From Vreelandella profundi (GTDB lineage Bacteria > Pseudomonadota > Gammaproteobacteria > Pseudomonadales > Halomonadaceae): DNA of 64,000 bases. Location of the stretch: the NCBI RefSeq assembly GCF_019722725.1, contig NZ_CP077941.1, forward strand, positions 1,922,001 through 1,986,000, in the 5' to 3' direction. The translations under genes were made by a program, and so were the position numbers. Shown here in pieces: positions 5,342 to 18,440 of this stretch (positions within the stretch are counted from its first letter, which is position 1; each line of letters opens with the position of its first letter). The notes under the pieces are model-generated. The model was not told where the DNA came from, made no database searches, and saw nothing but the letters and a program-made list of their open reading frames with translations.

Positions 5342-7299
5342 CACTTTGGCGCGTCATTTTATTGGGTGCTGTTTTGCTGGTGGTCGTTAATATTCAGCAA
5401 GTCCAGGCCGCACGCTCACCAAATGATTACGTGGTAATTAGCTACCACGACATTGTGGATGCCAGCGTCACTCCCGAGATGGATATCTATTCACAAACCA
5501 TTACACGCAGCCGATTAATCGAACATTTCAATCTCATCGACGCAGGGGGTTATCAGCCCGTTAGTTTGCAGCAAATCATTGATGCCAAAGCGGGAGGCCT
5601 ACCGCTGCCAGACAAAGCAGTACTGCTGACCTTCGATGATGGCTATCGCAGTTTTTACGATATCGTCTTTCCATTACTCCAGCTGTATAACTTCCCCGCC
5701 GTTCAAGCCGTGGTCGGTAGCTGGCTGGATGTACCTGCTGGCGGGCAAGTGCCGTATGGCAGTATTACGCTGCCTCGTGAGCGTTTTTTATCGTGGGCAC
5801 AAGTCAAAACGTTAGACGCGTCTCCGCTGGTTGAAATTGCCTCTCACTCGTACGGCCTGCATTACGGCGTGGTCGGCAACCCCATGGGTAACGAACAGGC
5901 AGCGGCAGTGACCAGCATTTGGAATGCCTATAGCGGGTACGAAAGCGAGGCAGAATACCTTGAGCGGGTGCGGCAAGACATGGCGCAAACGCAGCGACGC
6001 TTCCAAGAGCAGACTGGGCGTAGCCCACGCATTATCGTGTGGCCCTACGGCGCTTATAGCGAAGCAACGCTTAACATTGCAGCGGAATATGGCATGGACT
6101 ACACATTCAGCTTGCTTAGCGCCCCTAACCAGTTAAACGACTCAATGCGTACCATGAACCGCTACCTCATCGACCAGGAAACCAGCCTGCAAACCATTGA
6201 TGAGATCCTTTCCAACAGAGTGTGGGAACCTGAAGAGCTGCGCATTGTGCATGTCGATCTAGACTATGTGTATGACCCTGACCCGATTCAACAGGAGCAA
6301 AATCTTGACCGCCTGATTGAGCGCATTTCTCGCTACGGCGTTAATACCGTTTACCTTCAGGCCTATGCAGACCCGGATGGTGACGGCGTGGCGGACGCAC
6401 TTTACTTCCCTAACCGCCACCTGCCGGTAAGAGCGGACCTGTTCAATCGCGTGGCCTGGCAGTTAAAGAAACGCGCTAACGTAAAGGTATACGCCTGGAT
6501 GCCGGTGCTGTCGTTTGACCTGGGAACGGGGTACCAATATGTCACCGACGTCCGAACCGGCGCGGAATCACCTGATAACTACCGCCGGCTCTCGCCCTAC
6601 GTGCAAGAAAACCGCCGTATCATTCGGGAAATCTATCAAGATCTTGGTCGGCTGACCAAGTTCGATGGACTGCTGTTCCACGATGACGCCTTCTTCACCG
6701 ACTTTGAAGATGCCAACCCTGACGCCATCGCCGCCTATGAAGATGCGTCATTGCCAAGCGATATCAATGCAATACGTAACGACGATGGCTTAATGACTAC
6801 CTGGGCGCGCTTCAAAACGGCGTATCTAACTGACTTCACCTACGAGCTTGAACAGGCCGCGAACTACTATCGTCAGGCTGACAACAAAGTATTTACCACA
6901 TCGCGCAATCTGTATGCCGTCACGGTGATGGAGCCTCGTAGCCAGCGATGGTTTGCCCAGGATATTCAAAGCTTCGCCGCCGGCTACGACTTTGTGGCGG
7001 TCATGGCGATGCCGTATATGGAAGAAGCAGAGAATCCCGATGAATGGCTGCGAGCACTCGCCCAGCGTTCGCTCGCGCAGGTAAGCGCCGAACAACTGGT
7101 CTTTGAGCTACAAACGCAGAACTGGCATACCCAAACCCCGATTCCCAGCGAAGAGATAGCTCAATGGGTACGTATTCTGCGCGAAGAAGGCATCAAGAAC
7201 ATTGGCTATTACCCGGATGATTTTTTACAAAACCATCCAGACGTTAATGTCATGAGGCCAGTCTTTTCCATTGGACGCCGGTTTAGGGCAACGCCATGA
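5338..7299 (+). CDS. pgaB: Poly-beta-1,6-N-acetyl-D-glucosamine N-deacetylase PgaB
   Basis: Periplasmic enzyme that removes some acetyl groups from PNAG so that it can be exported through PgaA. The 653-residue protein has a signal peptide, a CE4 deacetylase domain with metal-binding TFDDGY (about 98-103) and SHSYGLH, and a C-terminal glycoside-hydrolase-like domain containing FDGLLFHDDA. The ATG at 5338 is chosen over one 12 bases upstream because it gives the ATGA overlap with pgaA. The signal peptide ends VQAARS with no lipobox cysteine, whereas E. coli PgaB is a lipoprotein, so this one is probably soluble. Confidence 0.92.
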   Translation: MTLWRVILLGAVLLVVVNIQQVQAARSPNDYVVISYHDIVDASVTPEMDIYSQTITRSRLIEHFNLIDAGGYQPVSLQQIIDAKAGGLPLPDKAVLLTFDDGYRSFYDIVFPLLQLYNFPAVQAVVGSWLDVPAGGQVPYGSITLPRERFLSWAQVKTLDASPLVEIASHSYGLHYGVVGNPMGNEQAAAVTSIWNAYSGYESEAEYLERVRQDMAQTQRRFQEQTGRSPRIIVWPYGAYSEATLNIAAEYGMDYTFSLLSAPNQLNDSMRTMNRYLIDQETSLQTIDEILSNRVWEPEELRIVHVDLDYVYDPDPIQQEQNLDRLIERISRYGVNTVYLQAYADPDGDGVADALYFPNRHLPVRADLFNRVAWQLKKRANVKVYAWMPVLSFDLGTGYQYVTDVRTGAESPDNYRRLSPYVQENRRIIREIYQDLGRLTKFDGLLFHDDAFFTDFEDANPDAIAAYEDASLPSDINAIRNDDGLMTTWARFKTAYLTDFTYELEQAANYYRQADNKVFTTSRNLYAVTVMEPRSQRWFAQDIQSFAAGYDFVAVMAMPYMEEAENPDEWLRALAQRSLAQVSAEQLVFELQTQNWHTQTPIPSEEIAQWVRILREEGIKNIGYYPDDFLQNHPDVNVMRPVFSIGRRFRATP

Positions 7300-8546
7300 A
7301 CATACTCAACGCTATGGCTATCTTCACCCTCGGCTATCCCAGCCTGATGGCGACCATATGGATCTGCGGGGGCATCTACTTCTACGTTCATTGGGAGCGC
7401 AAGCAACCCTGGCCCCAGACGTTTTCCTGGGATGAAAATGCGCCAAAGGTGACCGTCCTACTGCCTTGCTATAACGAAGAGGCAAATGTAGATGAGACGA
7501 TTCACCACCTCTTCAACCAGAACTATCCGCATATGGACGTCATTGCCATTAACGATGGAAGTACGGATAACACTGCCACAAAGCTGGATGCCTTGGCGCT
7601 TATTCATCCCACGTTAAAAGTGCTGCACCAGCCTAATCAGGGCAAAGCCAGCGCCATGAACAACGGTTTAAGCCAGGCGATAGGCGACATTATTGTCGGC
7701 ATCGATGGCGATGCGATCATGGACTACGACGCCATTGGCTATATGGTCGGCCACTTCCTTGGCAGCCCGAAAGTTAGCGGGGTCACCGGTAACCCGCGAG
7801 TTAGGACGCGCTCAACGGCCATTGGTAAAATTCAAACCGGCGAATTTTCAGCCATCATCGGCCTGATAAAACGTGCCCAGCGCATTTACGGAATGGTATT
7901 TACTATTTCTGGCGTTATTTGTGCCTTTCGGCGCAAAGCATTAGAAGAGATCGGCGGCTGGAATACAGACATGGTGACCGAAGATATCGATGTGAGCTGG
8001 CGGTTACAGCTGGCCGGTGGGCAGGTACGTTATGAGCCTAGAGCGATGTGCTGGGTGCTAATGCCGGAAACGCTACGTGGCCTGTTCAAACAGCGGCTAC
8101 GGTGGGCACAGGGTGGCGGCGAGGTCTTTCTACGCTACTTTCCACAGACAGTGCGCTGGAAAAACAGCCGTTTCTGGCTGCTGATGCTGGAATACATTAT
8201 CAGCGTGGTTTGGTGTTACTCGGTTATCACTCTGATACTTGTTTGGTTGGTATCTCATCTCTTAATGCCGATGGAGTGGCCCGTTACGGCAAGAGTACTT
8301 TCCTATTTTGGCAGCATCTTAATCGCCGTCAGCTTCATTCAGTTTACCGTTAGCTTTTATATCGACAGTCGCTACGACAAACAGATATTCCGCTGCGTTT
8401 ACTGGAGTATCTGGTACCCCTTCGCCTACTGGCTTATCAATATGGCTACCGTGGTCATTGCCTTCCCCAAAGCCATGATGCGGCAAAAAGGCAGGCTTGC
8501 CACTTGGAATAGTCCTGACCGCGGGGAGCAATTCAATGAGCAATAA
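7296..8546 (+). CDS. pgaC: Poly-beta-1,6-N-acetyl-D-glucosamine synthase PgaC
   Basis: Inner-membrane family-2 glycosyltransferase that polymerises UDP-GlcNAc into PNAG. The 416-residue protein has an N-terminal membrane segment, a cytoplasmic GT2 domain with DGDA near residue 135, a TED motif and QRLRW near 265, and several C-terminal membrane segments. It overlaps pgaB by ATGA and pgaD by 11 bases. In E. coli the PgaC-PgaD complex is activated by c-di-GMP. Diguanylate cyclase-type genes lie elsewhere in this window, but no specific link can be shown. Confidence 0.94.
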   Translation: MNILNAMAIFTLGYPSLMATIWICGGIYFYVHWERKQPWPQTFSWDENAPKVTVLLPCYNEEANVDETIHHLFNQNYPHMDVIAINDGSTDNTATKLDALALIHPTLKVLHQPNQGKASAMNNGLSQAIGDIIVGIDGDAIMDYDAIGYMVGHFLGSPKVSGVTGNPRVRTRSTAIGKIQTGEFSAIIGLIKRAQRIYGMVFTISGVICAFRRKALEEIGGWNTDMVTEDIDVSWRLQLAGGQVRYEPRAMCWVLMPETLRGLFKQRLRWAQGGGEVFLRYFPQTVRWKNSRFWLLMLEYIISVVWCYSVITLILVWLVSHLLMPMEWPVTARVLSYFGSILIAVSFIQFTVSFYIDSRYDKQIFRCVYWSIWYPFAYWLINMATVVIAFPKAMMRQKGRLATWNSPDRGEQFNEQ

Positions 8547-8910
8547 GCTAGTGCCCGTCATTATCGACAACCCTTACCAAAAAGGCTGGGGCTATCGCGT
8601 TCGCGATACCATTATCACCCTCGCTACGCTGGCGTTATGGGTGCTTGTGGTAGCAAAAATGTACATGTTCTTCTTTGTGGAAGAGGAGATTCTGGGTCAG
8701 CTTTATGACTCGGTTATGATCAAGTTGGTGCTAATCGGCTTTGTCGTCACCTTCCTCACCTTTCACTGCTGGGCGGTTTACAACCAGTTCCTGTATACCC
8801 GCCTATTAAAACGCCAGCTGCGCCACGTGCAGCCGACAGTGACGGCTATAGATAACGACGCAGAAGAATCTCTAGAGTGCAGTAAGGTGTATGAACAAGA
8901 GAAAGTCTGA
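8536..8910 (+). CDS. pgaD: PNAG biosynthesis protein PgaD
   Basis: Small inner-membrane partner of PgaC, 124 residues with two hydrophobic segments (about 25-50 and 65-90), as expected for PgaD. The ATG at 8536, inside the end of pgaC, is preferred to an ATG 39 bases upstream because it gives the usual PgaD N-terminus (MSNKLVPVIIDNPYQ). In E. coli PgaD binds c-di-GMP together with PgaC. PgaD sequences diverge strongly; the call rests on position, size and topology. Confidence 0.85.
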   Translation: MSNKLVPVIIDNPYQKGWGYRVRDTIITLATLALWVLVVAKMYMFFFVEEEILGQLYDSVMIKLVLIGFVVTFLTFHCWAVYNQFLYTRLLKRQLRHVQPTVTAIDNDAEESLECSKVYEQEKV

Positions 8911-8960
8911 ATTCCCAATCAAAAAATGCTGCTGACCCCATAATTTGATGGGAACGGGAG

Positions 8961-9080
8961 ATGAAACGATCAGAATATGAGCAGCGGCTAACAACAGAAG
9001 GTAAAGCTCAAGCGGACGCTTGGCTGGATCAGCATGGCAGAGAGTATCGCGCAGGGCTGGTGGCGGAAGGTAAGTGTTGA
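8961..9080 (+). CDS. Possible small protein of 39 residues
   Basis: A short reading frame between pgaD and rlmF begins at ATG 8961, after a GGGAG-like ribosome-binding sequence, and ends with TGA at 9080. The peptide starts MKRSEYEQRLTTEGKAQADA and is hydrophilic and rich in glutamate and glutamine, with no signal peptide or membrane segment. I do not recognise a family. A chance frame of this length cannot be excluded. Confidence 0.35.
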   Translation: MKRSEYEQRLTTEGKAQADAWLDQHGREYRAGLVAEGKC

Positions 9081-9169
9081 AAGTGATGCGCCTAGCATAA
9101 GCAAGCGTTATCAAGCGTACTTGCATACAATGTAAGTCCATTTGAACGCCAAGCCTCAGGCCTATTACT

Positions 9170-10108
9170 GTGACCACCCTGCATCGAAATGAAAAAAGCC
9201 GAGCTAAGCCTGTTGGCAAAGGCCTACACCCGAAGAATCTACACAACCAAGGCTATGATTTCCCAGCGCTCGTAAAAAGCCACCCTGCTCTAGCCCCCCA
9301 TGTAAAACCGAATGCTCATGGCAAGCTTTCTATCGATTTCGCAGACCCTTTGGCAGTTAAAACGCTTAACGCCGCGTTATTAAACCGCTACTACAATATT
9401 GCCGATTGGGATATTCCAGATGGCGCGCTTTGCCCTCCCATCCCAGGCAGGGCTGACTATATCCATTACATGGCCGATTTAATTGGGCTTGAGCGCGAAC
9501 AGCCCAGCATCAAGCTGCTCGATATAGGAACGGGGGCGAATGGCATCTACCCGCTACTGGCCTGCCAAATTTACGACTGGCAGTGTGTGGGTAGTGACAT
9601 TAACGCTCAATCGCTTGAGAACGTAGCCACGATTATCACCCGCAACCCCACGCTCAAAGATCGCTTCACGCTGCGCACGCAGCACGATAAAAACCATATG
9701 TTTGAAGGTATCATTCAAGCTGGGGAGTTCTTTGACGTCAGCGTATGCAACCCACCCTTCCATGCTTCCCTTGATGAAGCACTGAAAGGCAGCCAGCTTA
9801 AGCTCAACAACCTGGCGCGTAGTCGCGGTGAGCAAAAAGCAAAAACCAACTCTCCCACTTTGAATTTTGGTGGGATGGGGGCAGAGCTTTGGTGTAAGGG
9901 AGGCGAACAGCTGTTTCTTAAAAAGCTAATAAAAGAAAGCCAAGTGTATTCAACTCAATGCCGCTGGTTTAGCAGCCTGGTTTCAAAAGCCGACAATGTA
10001 AAACCTGCCACGAAGTTGATGCGTAAGCTCGGTGCCGTTGATATACGGGAAATAGAGATGACGCAGGGAAATAAGATGACGAGGATATTGGCCTGGACAT
10101 TCATCTGA
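9170..10108 (+). CDS. rlmF: 23S rRNA (adenine(1618)-N6)-methyltransferase RlmF
   Basis: SAM-dependent methyltransferase that modifies A1618 of 23S rRNA. The 312-residue protein matches the family throughout: NWDIPDG-like (DWDIPDG), CPPIPGRADYIHYMADL, a SAM-binding LLDIGTGANGIYPL loop, the catalytic NPPFH motif near residue 194, and LNFGGMGAELWCKGGE. The start codon is GTG. The 3' end abuts the degenerate integron: an IS-like fragment begins 24 bases past the stop. Confidence 0.94.
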   Translation: MTTLHRNEKSRAKPVGKGLHPKNLHNQGYDFPALVKSHPALAPHVKPNAHGKLSIDFADPLAVKTLNAALLNRYYNIADWDIPDGALCPPIPGRADYIHYMADLIGLEREQPSIKLLDIGTGANGIYPLLACQIYDWQCVGSDINAQSLENVATIITRNPTLKDRFTLRTQHDKNHMFEGIIQAGEFFDVSVCNPPFHASLDEALKGSQLKLNNLARSRGEQKAKTNSPTLNFGGMGAELWCKGGEQLFLKKLIKESQVYSTQCRWFSSLVSKADNVKPATKLMRKLGAVDIREIEMTQGNKMTRILAWTFI

Positions 10109-10131
10109 GGCGTTTTTGAGGTGACGGATGA

Positions 10132-10204
10132 GCATGCTGATCACTCTTCGTCTGTTTTCCCCTACCAAAACCTAGGCATCAGCTGGGTTTTCTACAGCCT
10201 CAAC
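10132..10204 (-). mobile_element. IS1182-like left-end fragment, copy 1
   Basis: About 73 bases closely match the stretch at 11052-11119, in the same orientation. Shared blocks include TTCTACAGCCTCAAC, TACCAAAAC and GCATGCTGA. In copy 2 this stretch leads straight into a transposase start codon, so it is read as the 5' end of an insertion sequence. Here the match stops right at the ATGC, and rlmF flanking DNA follows. Its outer end coincides exactly with the attC core at 10198-10204. Confidence 0.65.
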
Positions 10205-10255
10205 GCTATACACAGTGGTGCGCTTTAGCGCATCCACTACTGTGGCTTGTTAAGC
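10198..10255 (-). other. attC-like site after higBA (58 bp)
   Basis: Bounded on the minus strand by GCTTAAC (10249-10255) and GTTGAGG (10198-10204). The arms between them fold into an imperfect hairpin: CACAGTGGTGCGC pairs with GCGCA-T-CCAC-TAC-TGTG across a TTTA loop, leaving unpaired bases on one arm, as attC sites have. The higA stop codon lies inside the GCTTAAC core. At 58 bp it matches the short class of attC sites. The GTTGAGG end departs from GTTRRRY at its last base. Confidence 0.7.
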
Positions 10256-10543
10256 TGCTTCGAAATCTAGCGGATGAATATCGTCCAAATTCAGTGTGCT
10301 GCGGGCTACCCAAAGATCGTACATATCTTGCATCGCAAGCCAGCTTTCGGGAGAGCGGCCGACCACTTTTGAAAGCCGCAGAGACATCTCAGGGCTTACG
10401 CCACTATCTTTCTTAAGAAGCCGAGACAGAGTAGAAGGCGAGACACCGAGACTTGAGGCTAGCCGACGTGAACTAATGCCAAAAGGCTCCAAATATATAT
10501 CCCGGATGAACTCACCAGGATGCGGGGGATTATGCATGATCAT
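10250..10543 (-). CDS. higA: HigA antitoxin, XRE/HTH family
   Basis: A 97-residue antitoxin of the HigA addiction-module family. MHNPPHPGEFIRDIYLEPFGIS followed by a Cro/C1-type helix-turn-helix (LASSLGVSPSTLSRLL, about residues 28-45) is diagnostic. It neutralises HigB and represses the operon. Its ATG overlaps the higB stop as ATGA (10541-10545 region), the toxin-first order usual for higBA. The stop codon lies within the adjoining attC core, so the pair makes up the coding part of an integron cassette. Confidence 0.93.
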   Translation of the reverse strand: MIMHNPPHPGEFIRDIYLEPFGISSRRLASSLGVSPSTLSRLLKKDSGVSPEMSLRLSKVVGRSPESWLAMQDMYDLWVARSTLNLDDIHPLDFEAA

Positions 10544-10821
10544 CAGTGATAATCCTCGTAACCAAGTATGTAAGCGTTGCCGTCACGAAATTCAAACGTC
10601 AGGCGCCAATTGCCATTGACCCAAACTGACCATCGCCCTTTGTCTGTACCTTTCAGTACGTGCAGCCGGAAGCCCGGGATATCCATGTCATCCACTGACA
10701 CTGCAGTATCAAGGGCAGCAAGCTGCATGCGCAGTTTTTTGGCATGATCAGCCTGTATACCTGACGCGCTACCCGTCGAGTAGAATCGTTTCAGCCCTTT
10801 GTGACGGAATGATTTAATCAT
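10543..10821 (-). CDS. higB: HigB mRNA interferase toxin
   Basis: A 92-residue RelE-superfamily toxin that cleaves mRNA on the ribosome. It starts MIKSFRHKGLKRFY and ends WRLTFEFRDGNAYILGYEDYH, the HigB hallmark, with the IPGFRLHVLKG and GRWSVWVNGNWRLTF strands in between. The frame stays open upstream to 11055 through an insertion-sequence remnant, but the HigB fold begins at 10821. A good promoter places the transcript start at or one base before that ATG. That implies a leaderless message; no Shine-Dalgarno is visible. Confidence 0.92.
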   Translation of the reverse strand: MIKSFRHKGLKRFYSTGSASGIQADHAKKLRMQLAALDTAVSVDDMDIPGFRLHVLKGTDKGRWSVWVNGNWRLTFEFRDGNAYILGYEDYH

Positions 10822-10827
10822 TGCACA

Positions 10828-10856
10828 ATAGTAGCACGATGCGCACCACGCAACAA
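10828..10856 (-). promoter_or_regulatory. higBA promoter within the cassette
   Basis: On the minus strand, TTGTTG (-35, 10851-10856) and TACTAT (-10, 10828-10833) are separated by 17 bases. The expected transcription start is at 10821-10822, essentially the A of the higB ATG. Cassette toxin-antitoxin genes commonly carry their own promoter, so they do not rely on the integron promoter. Confidence 0.65.
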
Positions 10857-10890
10857 TAAGTGAGCGCCTAAGCTCAGTTTCGAAGGAGGG

Positions 10891-11119
10891 TCCGGTCGCA
10901 TCGTTGCGATACTTGGGATGGAAAACCGACAAATCCAATTTATGCTCGATCAGATAATGCACCGCGTATTCAAAAATGCCTGGCTGGAGCTTGTCTTGAT
11001 AGTTGATCACGACCATTGCGCTCTGATCGTGATTATAGGGGTTGAAGCGCGGCATGCTGACCACTCCCCTTGATCTTACCAAAACTTAGGCGTCAGCGGA
11101 GTTTTTCTACAGCCTCAAC
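10891..11119 (-). mobile_element. IS1182-like left end with transposase N-terminal fragment, copy 2
   Basis: An IS left end (11052-11119) leads into a transposase reading frame from ATG 11055. Its first ~55 residues (MPRFNPYNHDQSAMVVINYQ, then LIEHKLDLSVFHPKYRNDATG) match the N-terminus of IS1182-family transposases as I recall them. The match ends near 10891. The frame then continues without a stop through the higB promoter region into higB, a chance in-frame fusion of 170-odd residues. No catalytic domain remains. The family name is from memory. Confidence 0.75.
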
Positions 11120-11205
11120 GCAAAGCTAAGCGGCGAGCGAATGCGAGTCCACAGCCCGCCGCGTAGCGGTAAATTTAGGGCTTATGCTTCAGCGACTTGT
11201 TAATT
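11113..11205 (-). other. attC-like site after the membrane/coiled-coil cassette (93 bp)
   Basis: On the minus strand it is bounded by AATTAAC (11199-11205) and GTTGAGG (11113-11119). The inner boxes pair as GCTT-C-AGC with GCTAAGC, leaving one extrahelical base, a typical attC feature, and GC-rich arms fill the middle. The cassette gene's TAG stop is two bases before the AATTAAC core. The GTTGAGG core is also the outer end of the IS fragment. Confidence 0.68.
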
Positions 11206-11206
11206 T

Positions 11207-11788
11207 CTAACTAGGCTTAAGTGAATATTTCTCAACTAGCTCAGGTTCAATCACATGAGAAGATAGCTGCATATAAGCAACTGCGTATTCATTACATTTT
11301 TCAACAATTTCAATCATTTCGAGTTTATGGAAATCTTCAGAGCCAAATTTTGCAGCCATCGAAAAATCTGCACATAACTCAAAGAACTCCTGAGCTTCAC
11401 CCATAATTTTATTTATATACGGAATATAATCTGGGAAATACAACTGAATTAAAATGTGGACCTTATTCACCCGGCTATCAATACTCATCAACAACTGACT
11501 CATTTCCGATGCCGTATAGTTTTTACTGAAATTATTAAACCAGCTATCAAAAACGTCTTCGACACGAGCTATATCTAAAACTTGAATATTAATAGCTTCA
11601 ATTAGCTCTTCTTTTTTCTTTAATCTTAACTCTTTATCTTTAAGTGCAACTTCATGCTTATGAGCCATTTTCTGACGCCAATCCAACCATAGTTGACTCA
11701 ATATGACTGCGAATATTGCCAATATACCAGTACTTAATGTGGCTATGGATTGATTTGCCTCTAAATATGTAAATAGTTCTTTAAACAA
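11207..11788 (-). CDS. Cassette-encoded membrane/coiled-coil protein of unknown function
   Basis: A 193-residue protein without a family I recognise. One hydrophobic segment near the N-terminus (about residues 16-34, TLSTGILAIFAVILSQLWL) is followed by a charged, probably coiled-coil stretch (about 38-66, rich in Lys and Glu), then a helical C-terminal domain. The topology suggests a single-pass inner-membrane protein. The gene is clearly AT-richer than the surrounding chromosome and sits between two attC-like sites, so it is a gene cassette. It starts at ATG 11788, about 35 bases past the preceding attC. Confidence 0.75.
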   Translation of the reverse strand: MFKELFTYLEANQSIATLSTGILAIFAVILSQLWLDWRQKMAHKHEVALKDKELRLKKKEELIEAINIQVLDIARVEDVFDSWFNNFSKNYTASEMSQLLMSIDSRVNKVHILIQLYFPDYIPYINKIMGEAQEFFELCADFSMAAKFGSEDFHKLEMIEIVEKCNEYAVAYMQLSSHVIEPELVEKYSLKPS

Positions 11789-11822
11789 CCTAGCACCTCA
11801 AAACCTTAAGGAAAAAAAAAGA

Positions 11823-11926
11823 AATTAACGCCCGGCTTACCGAGCAAATTTTTGTTGGCGGCTTTTGTGCATATTTTGCACAAAAGGTGGCGGCGAAAAT
11901 TTGTCCGGTGCAGCCGTTTGTTAGGA
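11823..11926 (-). other. attC-like site after the HEPN cassette (104 bp)
   Basis: The cores are TCCTAAC (11920-11926 on the minus strand) and GTTAATT (11823-11829). CGGCT/AGCCG and TACCG/CGGTG pair with one extrahelical C between them. A long inner palindrome built on TTTTGTGCA/TGCACAAAA and CAAATTTT/AAAATTTG completes the fold. This is the architecture of long attC sites such as Vibrio cassette repeats. The HEPN gene's TAA lies inside the TCCTAAC core. Confidence 0.78.
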
Positions 11927-12394
11927 GTTGGCTGCACGAACCAACCCACCTTCGTGTTCTTTGCACCAAATATTTACAACCTTGGCACAGTTGAGCATGG
12001 CCTCTGGTGGGAAATGCGTAACAACTTCACCGTATCGAATTTCATTGGGGTACACAGAGCCACCAGCGAGGCTAGAATCTAGCAACTTGCCTACAGTGCC
12101 ATTTGCTATGTTTGGCACAACTTCTTTACTACGAATAGAGGTTGCTCTCTGGTTTGTGCCAGTGATTTTACAAGTACCGATGACATTAAGCAGATCATCG
12201 AGTTTATGTGAGTGCTTTTTAAGTTCATCTGGCCTATAGCCACAGCTCTCCAATAGAGCTTTTAGGCTAATCTCACACGAGAGACAACTTAAATATAATA
12301 TGGCTCTGCCTGCTTCCTCTTTCTCAGAAGAACTATGAAAAATTGCTTCAGCTGATTCGATAAGCCTTTCTGAAAATTCTAAACTATATTCCAT
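11921..12394 (-). CDS. HEPN-like protein, first integron cassette
   Basis: A 157-residue helical protein. The stretch LSCLSCEISLKALLESCGY followed by HSHKLDDLL resembles HEPN-domain proteins, which often act in RNase-type toxins, abortive infection or nucleotidyltransferase pairs. RPDELKKH fits the loose R-X4-6-H pattern, but its placement does not prove RNase activity. The gene starts 13 bases after the presumed attI junction (GTTAGGA, 12407-12413) and its stop lies inside the next attC core. It is therefore the first, and potentially best expressed, cassette. No partner nucleotidyltransferase is nearby. Confidence 0.75.
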   Translation of the reverse strand: MEYSLEFSERLIESAEAIFHSSSEKEEAGRAILYLSCLSCEISLKALLESCGYRPDELKKHSHKLDDLLNVIGTCKITGTNQRATSIRSKEVVPNIANGTVGKLLDSSLAGGSVYPNEIRYGEVVTHFPPEAMLNCAKVVNIWCKEHEGGLVRAANS

Positions 12395-12406
12395 GCTATG
12401 AAAGAG

Positions 12407-12413
12407 TCCTAAC
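12407..12413 (-). other. Presumed attI/first-cassette junction
   Basis: GTTAGGA on the minus strand lies 13 bases upstream of the first cassette gene, on the integrase side. It matches the GTTRRRY core used for cassette insertion except at the last base. An imperfect palindrome (GCGCGT...ACGCGC, about 12422-12452) lies next to it. The attI limits cannot be set from sequence alone. Confidence 0.5.
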
Positions 12414-12611
12414 AGGTATTAGACAGCGCGTCCTATGATTGGGCGAACGCGCCAGCATGTTTACTTAGCAAATGTAGCCCACCTGTTCGCATATAACCAC
12501 ATGATTTTAAATTAAATTAAATTAAATTAATATTAATTAGGCTGTATTTTCACAATTCGCACGCTTGCGCGTTTAGCCAAACTCAATAAAACTGTACATC
12601 CATACACCATC
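12414..12611. promoter_or_regulatory. Integron control region: candidate Pc promoter, AT-rich pentamer tract, integrase promoter
   Basis: This gene-free stretch separates the dead integrase from the cassettes. On the minus strand, TTGTGA (12550-12555) and TATTAA (12527-12532), spaced 17 bases, make a plausible cassette promoter Pc. Its -10 overlaps a run of about five TTAAA/TTAAT pentamers (about 12506-12540). Pointing the other way, the integrase promoter should lie near 12565-12590, just before the LexA box. Confidence 0.5.
12592..12607 (+). promoter_or_regulatory. LexA (SOS) box upstream of intI remnant
   Basis: CTGT-N8-ACAC (N8 = ACATCCAT) departs from the gammaproteobacterial LexA consensus CTGT-N8-ACAG at one base. 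It ends 4 bases before the likely intI ATG at 12612. LexA control of intI is established for Vibrio and class 1 integrons. Its survival here supports the reading of the adjacent pseudogene as a former SOS-regulated integrase. Confidence 0.72.
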
Positions 12612-13136
12612 ATGGTCGATGACCAAATGGATATGCAAAACAACCCACCGAAGCTAATGAATCGTGTCAAGGCAGTGATGCGGGTAAAGCACTACAGCCC
12701 ACGTACTGAAAAAGCCTACTGTTATTGGATACGCTAATTCATTCGCTATCATGGCATACGTCACCCTGCCACTATGGGCCCTTTTGGGGTGCAGGCTTTT
12801 CTTAAGCACCTTGCCGTTGAGCGATACGTAGCAGCAACGCTGAATCAAGCGCTTAACGCACTTGTATTCCTCTATCGCCATGTACTCAATAAGCCACTGG
12901 GCGATATTGGCACTTTTTCCCGAGCTAAACGCCCACGTCGACTACCCATTATGCTATTAAACCAGTTATCTGGCTCGATACATCTAAATGGCTATTTTGA
13001 TGTATGGCTCGGGGCTGCGGCTCATCGAAACATGCCGTGTGCGCTGGATCGTAAGTATCCAAACGCGGGTATTTCCTTGGGCTGGCAATGGCTGCTTCCT
13101 GCAAGCCGCCCATGCTGTGATAATGCCGTTGTATAA
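12612..13136 (+). pseudogene. intI: Integron integrase (IntI-type tyrosine recombinase), inactivated
   Basis: Translation from ATG 12612 gives VMRVKHYSPRTEKAYCYWIR, an in-frame TAA (12735-12737), then FIRYHGIRHPATMG and onward to KRPRRLPIMLLNQ: the SAM-like N-terminal domain of integron integrases. The catalytic core survives as scraps. LMYGSGLRLIETCRVR reads in the +1 frame near 13000-13050. ALDRKYPNAG, the patch specific to integron integrases, follows back in the first frame. About 80 residues between them are missing, as are the second Arg box and the nucleophilic Tyr. One nonsense codon, frame changes and a deletion make it non-functional. Confidence 0.88.
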
Positions 13137-13348
13137 AAGCGTTGCCTCTGGGGCCAACAGTTTGTTGGTTGCATTGGCCTAGTACCGCTCTTCGCTCGTT
13201 ACCACGCACTACATGATGTGGTTGTGCATTTAGTGGCACCAATTCTCCCCCGTGCGTAAAAATCTCTTCCTTTTGCTACATAACACGTTGCTGCTAGCCT
13301 TCTGCCGTAAATCCGATTAGCCTGCTAATTCATTACTAAGGGTTTGAC
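13137..13348. other. Gene-free stretch after the intI remnant
   Basis: About 210 bases with no supportable gene. Short decayed integrase-like residues may run on to about 13150. No terminator or attC-like structure was recognised. The end holds the ribosome-binding region of the next gene (AAGGG before ATG 13349). Confidence 0.4.
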
Positions 13349-14662
13349 ATGCAAGAGACAACTTCATGGCAGCGCTTGGCAGGCGTGCTGATTCTGCTTA
13401 GTTTAATTGCACAAATTATTGGTTTTACTGACTGGCTTTCCACCGCACACGCGGTGAGCTATTTGCTATGGGCGGCGGTTGTGTTGCTGTGGCGAGATAT
13501 TCCGAGACGCTCAAGGCTTCAGGCGGGCGTACTTATCGCGCTTGGTGTGCTGATGTTGTTAGTAGCAAGGTTTGTGTACGGTGCGGAGATAGATTGGCCC
13601 AGCATGTTGCAAGGCAACATTTTTGTGGTCTCGATGCTGGTGGGGGTTAGCTTTATCTCTCTGATTGGTAAGCAAGGCAATAAAGGGGCGACGGGGCAGC
13701 GGGTAACCGGTGCTGGCGGTGTGCTGAGAACGTGGTTGGGCGTTCACTTCCTGGGTACCATCTTAAATCTATCGACGGTGTTGATGGTGGGCGACAAATT
13801 GGCCCGCCGTGGGCCGCTCACGACACCGCAGTTATTAGCACTCAACCGAGGTCTTTCCAGTGCGGCACTGTGGTCACCGTTTTTTGCCTCCATGGGGCTT
13901 GTCCTCGCACTGGTGCCGGACGTTCAGTACGCGCAAATTGCCATCGTAGGGTTTCCTCTGGCGATGCTATCAGGGCTACTCACCACGCTGGAGCTAAAAC
14001 GCCGCTTTGATTTAACCGAAGTCGATGGCTTTTCTCTAGCGCCAAGCAGTTTGATGATGCCTGTGGTCATGGCGTTACTGGTGATGCTATTTCACTTCTT
14101 GCTCACACCAACCCTTTCCATCATCAGCATTATCACTTTCCTGCTGCCCTGCGTGGCGGTGCTGAGCAACCTACGCGATGGGCCGCGCTTTACTCTGCGG
14201 CGCATTCTTCAGCACACCACTACCCGACTACCCGCCATGCGCGGTGAGCTTTCACTGTTTTTAGCGGCAGGACTTTTGACGATTGGACTTTCGACACTGG
14301 TAACGGCAGTGGCAGGCAGCGACTGGACACTCTTCGCACGCTTTGGCACACCGCAAGCAATGATCAGCTTTGCGGCGATTACCTTAAGCGCATTAGCGGG
14401 CTTGCATCCGATTATTGGCGTGTCGGTGCTGGCGTCAATGCTCAATTTACACAATGGCGAGCAGACCCTGTTTGCGTTTGTCGCATTAAGCTCGTGGGCA
14501 GTAGGCACTAGCGTAGGGCCACTTTCAGGCATCAATCTATCGCTACAAGGCCGCTACGGTGTGAGTGGCTATCGTATGATGAAAAACAATCTTCCCTATG
14601 CTGCGGTGATGAGCCTGCTTTCGCTAGGGGCGATTGCAGGCATCAGCTTGATGGTTATTTAG
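13349..14662 (+). CDS. Polytopic inner-membrane protein of unknown function
   Basis: A 437-residue protein with about eleven or twelve hydrophobic segments across its whole length and no long soluble domain. It has the look of an ion- or solute-transporter. A small-residue motif near the C-terminus, SSWAVGTSVGPLSGINLSLQ, could line a substrate path. I do not recognise the family. AAGGG lies 7-8 bases before the ATG. It ends 4 bases short of the convergent zinc-ribbon gene. Confidence 0.75.
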   Translation: MQETTSWQRLAGVLILLSLIAQIIGFTDWLSTAHAVSYLLWAAVVLLWRDIPRRSRLQAGVLIALGVLMLLVARFVYGAEIDWPSMLQGNIFVVSMLVGVSFISLIGKQGNKGATGQRVTGAGGVLRTWLGVHFLGTILNLSTVLMVGDKLARRGPLTTPQLLALNRGLSSAALWSPFFASMGLVLALVPDVQYAQIAIVGFPLAMLSGLLTTLELKRRFDLTEVDGFSLAPSSLMMPVVMALLVMLFHFLLTPTLSIISIITFLLPCVAVLSNLRDGPRFTLRRILQHTTTRLPAMRGELSLFLAAGLLTIGLSTLVTAVAGSDWTLFARFGTPQAMISFAAITLSALAGLHPIIGVSVLASMLNLHNGEQTLFAFVALSSWAVGTSVGPLSGINLSLQGRYGVSGYRMMKNNLPYAAVMSLLSLGAIAGISLMVI

Positions 14663-14666
14663 CAGA

Positions 14667-15188
14667 TCACGTTTCGATAATTTTATTAGGGAAGCGGTAG
14701 AAATAACGATGGCCACACTCATGACAGGGCTCTAGGCGCGCCACGGTGGGCAGCGTGACCTGGGCATCGCAATGTACGCAGGCCATTAAGCCGGGTGCGG
14801 CCATTTCGCCTTCGCAGTAATCGGCGCGGGCTGCTTCTAAATCATCCTCGAAGCGTTCACGGTCCACTACGCTGCGATCGGCAACTGACAGCAGTGATTC
14901 CGCTACGCGCCGGGAAAGGCCGTCCAGGTCGATACCTAGCCAGCTGGCTACCTGCTTACCGGTATCGGCCATGTAGTAGCGCATGTCTTTCAAATCGCGC
15001 TCTACCCAGGCTCGCAGCAGGGCTAGCTCGTCTTTGGTGTATTCTTCAAGGTCTGATTCGAATTCAACCGCATCGTCCAAATCCTTCTGTAAGTTTTGCC
15101 AAGTTAGCTCGTTAGCGCCTCCCTGCATCCGCTCTAACAGTCGTTCGTAGCCTTCGCGTAGGCGGTTGTCATTCTGATGTTCACTCAT
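14667..15188 (-). CDS. Zinc-ribbon protein of the YbeL/DUF1451 family
   Basis: A 173-residue cytoplasmic protein. A charged helical N-terminal region (about 1-125) is followed by a C-terminal zinc ribbon with two CxxC knuckles (ACVHCDA and CHECGHRYFYRFP). Size, layout and position divergent from leuS match E. coli ybeL, which holds the same place. The function of the family is not established. The start codon is preceded by AGGAGAGGCACC-like sequence. Confidence 0.82.
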   Translation of the reverse strand: MSEHQNDNRLREGYERLLERMQGGANELTWQNLQKDLDDAVEFESDLEEYTKDELALLRAWVERDLKDMRYYMADTGKQVASWLGIDLDGLSRRVAESLLSVADRSVVDRERFEDDLEAARADYCEGEMAAPGLMACVHCDAQVTLPTVARLEPCHECGHRYFYRFPNKIIET

Positions 15189-15259
15189 GGTGCCTCTCCT
15201 TTTGTCGACGCATGCAGTTTCCTATCATCGGCTTACCGTTCAAGGATACACCTGCATAG

Positions 15260-18440
<3,181 letters not shown>

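Follow-up and report, generated by a model that had tools for sequence, protein, structure and literature searches.

The window analysed here is a stretch of 64,000 nucleotides from Vreelandella profundi (contig NZ_CP077941.1, positions 1,922,001 to 1,986,000 of the forward strand), whose genome of 3.64 Mb forms one contig. Between rlmF and a transporter-like gene the window very probably carries a decayed sedentary chromosomal integron of Vreelandella (Halomonas sensu lato), in which two of the cassette recombination sites, attC2 and attC3, were separately struck by an IS1182-like insertion sequence (IS). That the locus next to rlmF is a fossil chromosomal integron holding three cassettes had been proposed earlier (the original prediction). 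This proposal is supported by the match of an integrase remnant to the NCBIfam family TIGR02249 ('integron integrase'), by an attC model trained independently, by the attI boundary that relatives share and by their intact integrons at this chromosomal position. In addition, the evidence leans slightly towards a DDE (IS1182-like) IS family, present across several gammaproteobacterial families, that homes to attC: inserting in one orientation directly behind the crossover GTT and duplicating 3 bp, it would restore a functional R' box through its own first bases and travel with the next cassette, and the window would hold two fossil insertions of this family.

The integrase remnant is located at 12627..13127 on the plus strand. 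In the reading frames of the window, 12774-13133 matches TIGR02249 at E 2.1e-21 and 12612-12737 matches it at E 4.6e-4, and both frames also match the SAM-like N-terminal domain PF13495; the translated region 12612-13136 thus agrees with the integron integrase profile. In a whole-genome search the remnant was the best TIGR02249 match of the genome (99.6 bits, one in-frame TAA). It falls below the curated cut-off of 265 bits, and no integrase over this cut-off was found in that search. Compared by tblastn with intact relatives, it covers residues 1-129, residues 130-148 in another frame, and residues 205-237; the remainder is gone. The gene thus shows an in-frame stop, a frameshift, an internal deletion and the loss of its C-terminal part, which is consistent with the dead integrase described before: a member of the family, yet broken and under the family cut-off. 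The second half of the catalytic residue set would presumably lie in the missing end. Because the C-terminal part is lacking, recombination in cis would not be expected.

Three attC sites are located on the minus strand: attC1, the best preserved, at 11823..11926, the degraded attC2 at 11113..11205, and attC3 at 10197..10255. The final four bases of attC2 and of attC3 belong to an IS end. A simple box-and-pairing scan of the cassette arrays of relatives gave 110 sites, or 91 once near-copies were removed. The covariance model R1, with 14 base pairs, was built from 50 relatives' sites picked by score and box; its training set contains no sequence from the genome of the window. In the R1 alignment 90.1% of the pair cells are standard pairs, vs 65.4% after shuffling. 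Over the 64 kb, R1 matched attC1 (E 1.3e-6), attC3 (E 1.7e-3) and attC2 (E 9e-3), all on the minus strand; up to E 10 there were four matches, and the fourth, elsewhere, had E 1.1. In the genome-wide search (150 of 1853 candidates scored) attC1 was found at E 8.0e-5. When the bottom strand was folded as single-stranded DNA and compared with shuffles, attC1 gave z -6.58 and attC3 z -2.84. The open reading frames end at 11921, 11207 and 10250, and the attC sites start at 11926, 11205 and 10255. All three cassette genes therefore stop inside or next to the R'' box, as had been claimed. A search with an attC covariance model (R1, our own) accordingly places three sites with E<1 where they had been predicted, all in the orientation of an array divergent from the integrase and in the order originally described. 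A simple scan with strict boxes found attC3 alone in the window, and R1 was used instead. An Rfam scan of 8000-16000 listed seven matches, all under the gathering scores; three of them were microRNA models on the attC1 hairpin.

The attI and leader region extends over 12407..12600 on the minus strand, with the junction to cassette 1 at about 12411. The attI boundary was placed at TAACAGGTATTAGAC (window about 12411) in an alignment of the sequences upstream of the integrase from 17 loci. To the right of it 14 of the 16 relatives resemble the window, and the left side differs (both judged by eye), which is therefore as expected from different first cassettes inserted at one attI. L062 is unlike the others to the right of the boundary and L063 is alike for the first bases only; both are integrons of the window's integrase lineage at other sites. 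An AAATT repeat in the attI leader (window 12500-12540) is 10 bp longer than in the aligned relatives.

Several observations weigh against the integron reading. The R1 pair counts are partly circular, as the training sites were picked by a pairing scan. Genome-wide, attC3 reaches no better than E 0.10, and attC2 is absent from the candidates listed (150 of the 1853 were scored). With z +0.56, attC2 also folds no better than shuffles, for which reason it is regarded as decayed; all three places claimed for attC-like hairpins are matched by R1. The candidate cassette promoter (Pc) was not supported: a consensus scan of 12380-12660 found 0 sigma70-like sites, vs a shuffle mean of 1.3. The LexA-like site (12592..12607, plus strand) has one mismatch, and such one-mismatch sites are not enriched in the window (13 found vs 19.7 expected). 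A LexA box within one mismatch at the same position is present also in L044, L062 and L063, so that the placement proposed for it recurs in some relatives, but most loci of the same lineage lack such a box there and the site is best called weak. Perfect LexA boxes near the integrase start were found in L046, L048, L058, L064, L065 and L068, which carry two other integrase lineages.

Cassette 1 (11921..12394, minus strand) encodes a HEPN-like protein of 157 amino acids (aa) without Pfam or NCBIfam match. Its 109 listed relatives are up to 96% identical, and some of them are named HEPN domain-containing; the named relatives are from marine gammaproteobacteria, namely Marinomonas (88%), Vibrio, Aliivibrio, Photobacterium, Halomonas and others. 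A search for homologues that might lie beside attC elsewhere found them in 2 of 369 class genomes, one being the window's own genome, which is too few to use. Cassette 2 (11207..11788, minus strand) encodes 193 aa without significant Pfam or NCBIfam match; nine proteins were listed including itself, among them those of Psychromonas (90%), Pseudoalteromonas (89%) and Shewanella (61%). Because distant genera share proteins that are 88-90% identical, transfer of cassettes 1 and 2 is indicated. Cassette 3, also on the minus strand, consists of the toxin gene higB (10543..10821, PF05015 9.7e-24, start codon picked by eye) and the antitoxin gene higA (10250..10543, TIGR02607 5e-30), both with intact frames. 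The intact integrons L042 and L043 carry both genes in their arrays, with 88% identity for higA and 85-86% for higB, and in L042 an attC at 11400-11471 follows directly after higA.

By analogy with known integrons, the integrase, read rightwards, would have captured circular cassettes at the attI beside its own gene, and the array would have been built on the other strand. The integrase then lost its second half and its reading frame, as is visible in the remnant, and because of this loss the three cassettes (the HEPN-like gene, the gene of unknown function and the intact higBA pair) would be frozen in place. They would now be mobile only with an integrase supplied in trans.

The two IS fragments are both on the minus strand. 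One (10132..10201) abuts attC3 and extends to the flank of rlmF; the other, larger one (10893..11116, lower limit approximate) abuts attC2 and holds the start of a transposase frame, with an N-terminal transposase match. The direct repeats 10132-10237 and 11052-11152 are two left ends of one IS type, each starting in an attC R' box, and the repeats D1, D3 and D8 link the fragment on the attC3 side (10132-10201) with 11052-11152. The terminal repeat GAGGCTGTAGAAA is present with 0 mismatches at 10201 and at 11116. The earlier description of attC2 and attC3 thus requires a supplement, as it left the IS fragments unmentioned and both sites end in an IS1182-like left end. A full relative in L046 (4388-5962) encodes a transposase of 524 aa with the domains PF13751 DDE_Tnp_1_6 (6.8e-28) and PF05598 DUF772 (2.5e-15); it matches the IS1182 model NF033551 at 1.8e-76 with 258 bits and is called IS1182-like because this falls short of the cut-off of 270. 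Copies of the IS were found in 23 of the 82 genomes sampled from the genus (E<=1e-60), in 30 of 250 genomes of a family sample (E<=1e-150), of which 14 belong to other genera, and in 13 of 369 genomes of the class (E<=1e-100). Two plasmid records hold distant relatives of the transposase (39-42% identical, E<=1e-80). A third IS1182-like remnant in the window's genome, L162 5511-5965, has an attC (5961-6070) at its left end.

Seventy distinct left ends were compared, being 94 rows less 18 duplicates (two also false), 3 at contig ends (L205, L229, L232) and 4 without plausible terminal repeat (L051, L061, L075 and L194 at 25). This number includes the remnant at 10201 of the window, added to the rows although it lacks a transposase start. 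Other short remnants without transposase start (L044, L068 at 5388, L075 at 3845) were left out. The left end directly follows CGTT in 67 of the 70. An R1 attC match with its R' box within two bases of the junction was found at 53 of the 70, where 0.1-0.2 would be expected at random; the control value of 0.1 took the typed hits (at array loci mostly those at junctions), and all listed hits were reckoned to give 0.1-0.2. None of the 53 junction sites is a training row of R1. By group, attC was found at 27 of 35 left ends in Vreelandella (two being those of the window), 17 of 19 elsewhere in the family, and 9 of 16 in other families. At the right end, 24 of the 26 non-duplicate copies are followed by GTT, L180 by GCT and L185 by ATT; in L185 the ATT stands on both sides of the IS, which amounts to a 3-bp duplication. 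The right flanks of all 26 copies differ (by eye). In L203 (a class genome, at 1339) one IS copy lies directly against the right end of another, at that copy's GTT.

Some features of this test speak against homing. The count includes L049 and L198 only after their hits were extended by four bases, and would otherwise be 51 of 70. Calls at E 0.01 or less make up 46 of the 53; the remaining seven are L055 (0.32), L204 (0.19), L199 (0.09), L203 (0.056), L176 and L225 (both 0.021) and L237 (0.013). R1 makes no attC call at the junction in 17 of the 70 left ends, including 7 of the 16 outside the family; by eye, L194, L202, L206 and L209 are attC-like there all the same. The test took attC on the transposase strand only, so that the opposite orientation stood outside it and the 53 share one orientation by design. 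The pattern could also arise without any homing, if one old IS insertion had been spread by integron recombination that joined the IS-bearing cassette to many attC sites. As the crossover would lie 5' of the IS, cassette shuffling alone would give varied left flanks beside a constant IS. Shuffling would also preserve the right flank, yet all 26 right flanks differ, and a single insertion spread in this way is disfavoured for that reason. Moreover, copies without an attC call likewise follow CGTT or ATT, one of them with ATT on both sides, and no two of the 70 left flanks are the same, with other genera and families represented among them. Spread by shuffling is therefore considered quite improbable.

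Under the preferred account of homing, the IS would have entered attC2 and attC3 at their crossover triplet GTT, as its position in the window shows. Its transposase end faces the attC hairpin, and the transposase is read in the direction of the cassettes. Insertion would produce a 3-bp target duplication; this is seen in the full copies of relatives, because the window copies have lost their right ends. Since the IS begins with GAG, a struck attC still reads GTTGAGG, close to GTTRRRY, and the IS may thus form the 5' end of the following cassette and leave the attC functional.

Within the genus sample, an integrase over the TIGR02249 cut-off was found in 19 of 82 genomes, and 15 of the 19 are near the full profile and without internal stop. 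The transporter-like gene (13349..14662, plus strand), named by eye and without Pfam or NCBIfam match, is the conserved neighbour on the integrase side; it is present in 81 of 82 genomes and follows the integrase in the syntenic loci. When matches of at least 40% identity were counted, with the window included, the site before the transporter held an intact or broken integrase in 24 genomes, 17 with the lineage of the window and 7 with another; a 46% identical piece in L059 would make a 25th. A comparison of the rlmF-adjacent locus in relatives, suggested with the original prediction, gave an intact integrase before the same transporter in six genomes (L041, L042, L043, L044, L045, L046). On its far side the array is bounded by the chromosomal gene rlmF (9170..10108, plus strand, NCBIfam NF008725 4.9e-126), and rlmF or a remnant of it is present there in nine loci (the window, L037, L038, L039, L045, L050, L051, L052, L055). 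L045 represents the living version, with an integrase without internal stop, 14 candidate attC sites (simple scan) and rlmF at the end. L056 and L061 have kept rlmF and the transporter, and neither integrase nor attC was found in them; L057 and L060 have attC sites, and no integrase was found. In 27 loci of more distant records (L123-L151 minus L127 and L147) no integrase was found beside the transporter.

The integrases of L038, L039, L050, L051, L052, L053 and perhaps L054 have a common truncation point (by eye, in the part of the comparison listed). Because the window lacks this point common to six loci, the integrase is taken to have died more than once. Among twelve carriers (14 loci compared) the first 390 bases of the integrase differ by 2-9% and the transporter by 5-21%. 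The window is 25-27% distant from those twelve in the integrase (38% from L054) and 20-24% in the transporter. We infer that the window represents an old resident platform and that a similar platform later spread among other species. The integrase is more alike across the twelve carriers than the transporter, which suggests a recombination-driven spread of one platform, the broken one included.

R1 also finds attC sites elsewhere in the genome. Up to E 5 it listed 25 candidates genome-wide, two of them those of the window, and on eight fetched stretches outside the window it gave 28 candidates at E<=0.2. Seven of these places (L160-L166) hold 25 of the candidates, as clusters, pairs and two single sites, and the whole-genome TIGR02249 search listed no integron-integrase match there. 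The eighth, L071 (G000:C1, about 880-884 kb), is a second integron fossil with an N-terminal integrase piece at 5878-6123, nearer another lineage (about 69% identical), and three attC candidates at 7233-9203 on the divergent side of the integrase. In the genus, attC was found at E<=0.01 in 80 of 82 genomes, and the two without are incomplete (66 and 88%). A family sample gave attC in 103 of 121 genomes and none in 18, so that R1 does not match everywhere.

Other readings of the locus were weighed. The attC-like hairpins and small genes might make up an ordinary defence or toxin-antitoxin islet, with the integrase piece as unrelated debris; higBA and HEPN proteins occur in many islands, attC2 is poorly folded and it is absent from the genome-wide attC list. 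Set against this, the three attC matches stand at the three expected places with no other at E<1 in 64 kb, the genes end at R'' boxes, the attI boundary is conserved and relatives hold intact integrons at the same site, which makes a mere islet scarcely credible. A better case exists for an array that is a live reservoir, which after horizontal transfer is still mobilised by an integrase supplied in trans: attC1 has kept its form well, the reading frames of the cassettes are intact and an integrase above the family cut-off occurs in 19 of the 82 genomes of the genus. As this genome is without such an integrase and attC2 is decayed, a live reservoir is doubtful, though it keeps a real chance. 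As to the history of the integrase, strictly vertical inheritance from the genus ancestor in all carriers would explain the same chromosomal site in 24 genomes and a divergence of the window's integrase close to that of its transporter. The distances of integrase and host gene correlate only weakly, with a Mantel r of 0.37 (14 loci; 225 of 5000 permutations as high), so that the platform is taken as not simply inherited. The twelve other carriers differ by 2-9% in the integrase yet by 5-21% in the transporter, and this one site houses two integrase lineages with about half of their sequence identical. For the six loci, perhaps also L054, that share one truncation point, spread by recombination is likelier, and descent in all carriers from one ancestor is accordingly judged unlikely.

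The integron itself, the fossil favoured here, belongs to a known kind of system. Sedentary chromosomal integrons of Xanthomonas and of Vibrio likewise have intI divergent from the array, attI, attC and toxin-antitoxin cassettes; unlike them, the present one is in another genus and between a transporter gene and rlmF, with three cassettes left and a dead integrase. For Xanthomonas, PMC12444791 describes a usual integron site, repeated loss of intI and arrays that persist. Clusters of attC sites without integrase (CALINs) resemble the 28 further attC candidates in eight places of this genome, but the locus in the window is a decayed complete integron because it has kept an integrase remnant and attI. 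The claim of an unreported lineage holds in part. No description of this locus was found in the open literature (subscription papers were mostly outside the search and supplements unread), but integron integrases of Halomonas, Vreelandella and Chromohalobacter are already annotated as such in databases, and one CALIN is tabulated for Halomonas sulfidaeris SST4 in PMC10295459.

Vreelandella is a genus used in biotechnology. Its integron site is seen in stages from intact to ruined, so that integron death can be compared across species, and with attC in 80 of 82 genus genomes vs an integrase over the cut-off in 19 of 82 the fate of orphan cassettes becomes testable. If the IS does home to attC, a classical DDE transposase would have come to recognise a target that integrases handle in folded, single-stranded form. 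This recognition would be independent of the RNA-guided IS1111 elements and would raise a testable question on target choice. To our knowledge, the only attC-targeting elements known are those of the IS1111 type and the group IIC introns. An attC-homing DDE insertion sequence looks like a new variation, and no account of attC homing by IS1182-type elements was found within the same limits of the literature search. The present IS shares the DDE_Tnp_1_6 and DUF772 domains with the IS1182 family but not a score above its cut-off (258 vs 270). Insertion sequences of the IS1111-attC group (e.g. ISKpn4, ISPst6) target one end of attC sites (PMC11187229). They have a DEDD transposase, a seekRNA and subterminal repeats, whereas the IS here has a DDE transposase, inverted repeats at its very ends and a 3-bp duplication. 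Group IIC-attC introns target attC hairpins, according to the main text of PMC7923331, which reports a screen of 104 halophile genomes and in which the word Halomonas does not occur; they are retroelements, unlike the DDE IS here. No group II intron was noticed in window 9000-14500. In L075 (2023-3303) a group II intron reverse transcriptase gene is located beside an IS1182-like copy for which no left end was found, and the intron may have been inserted into the IS end.

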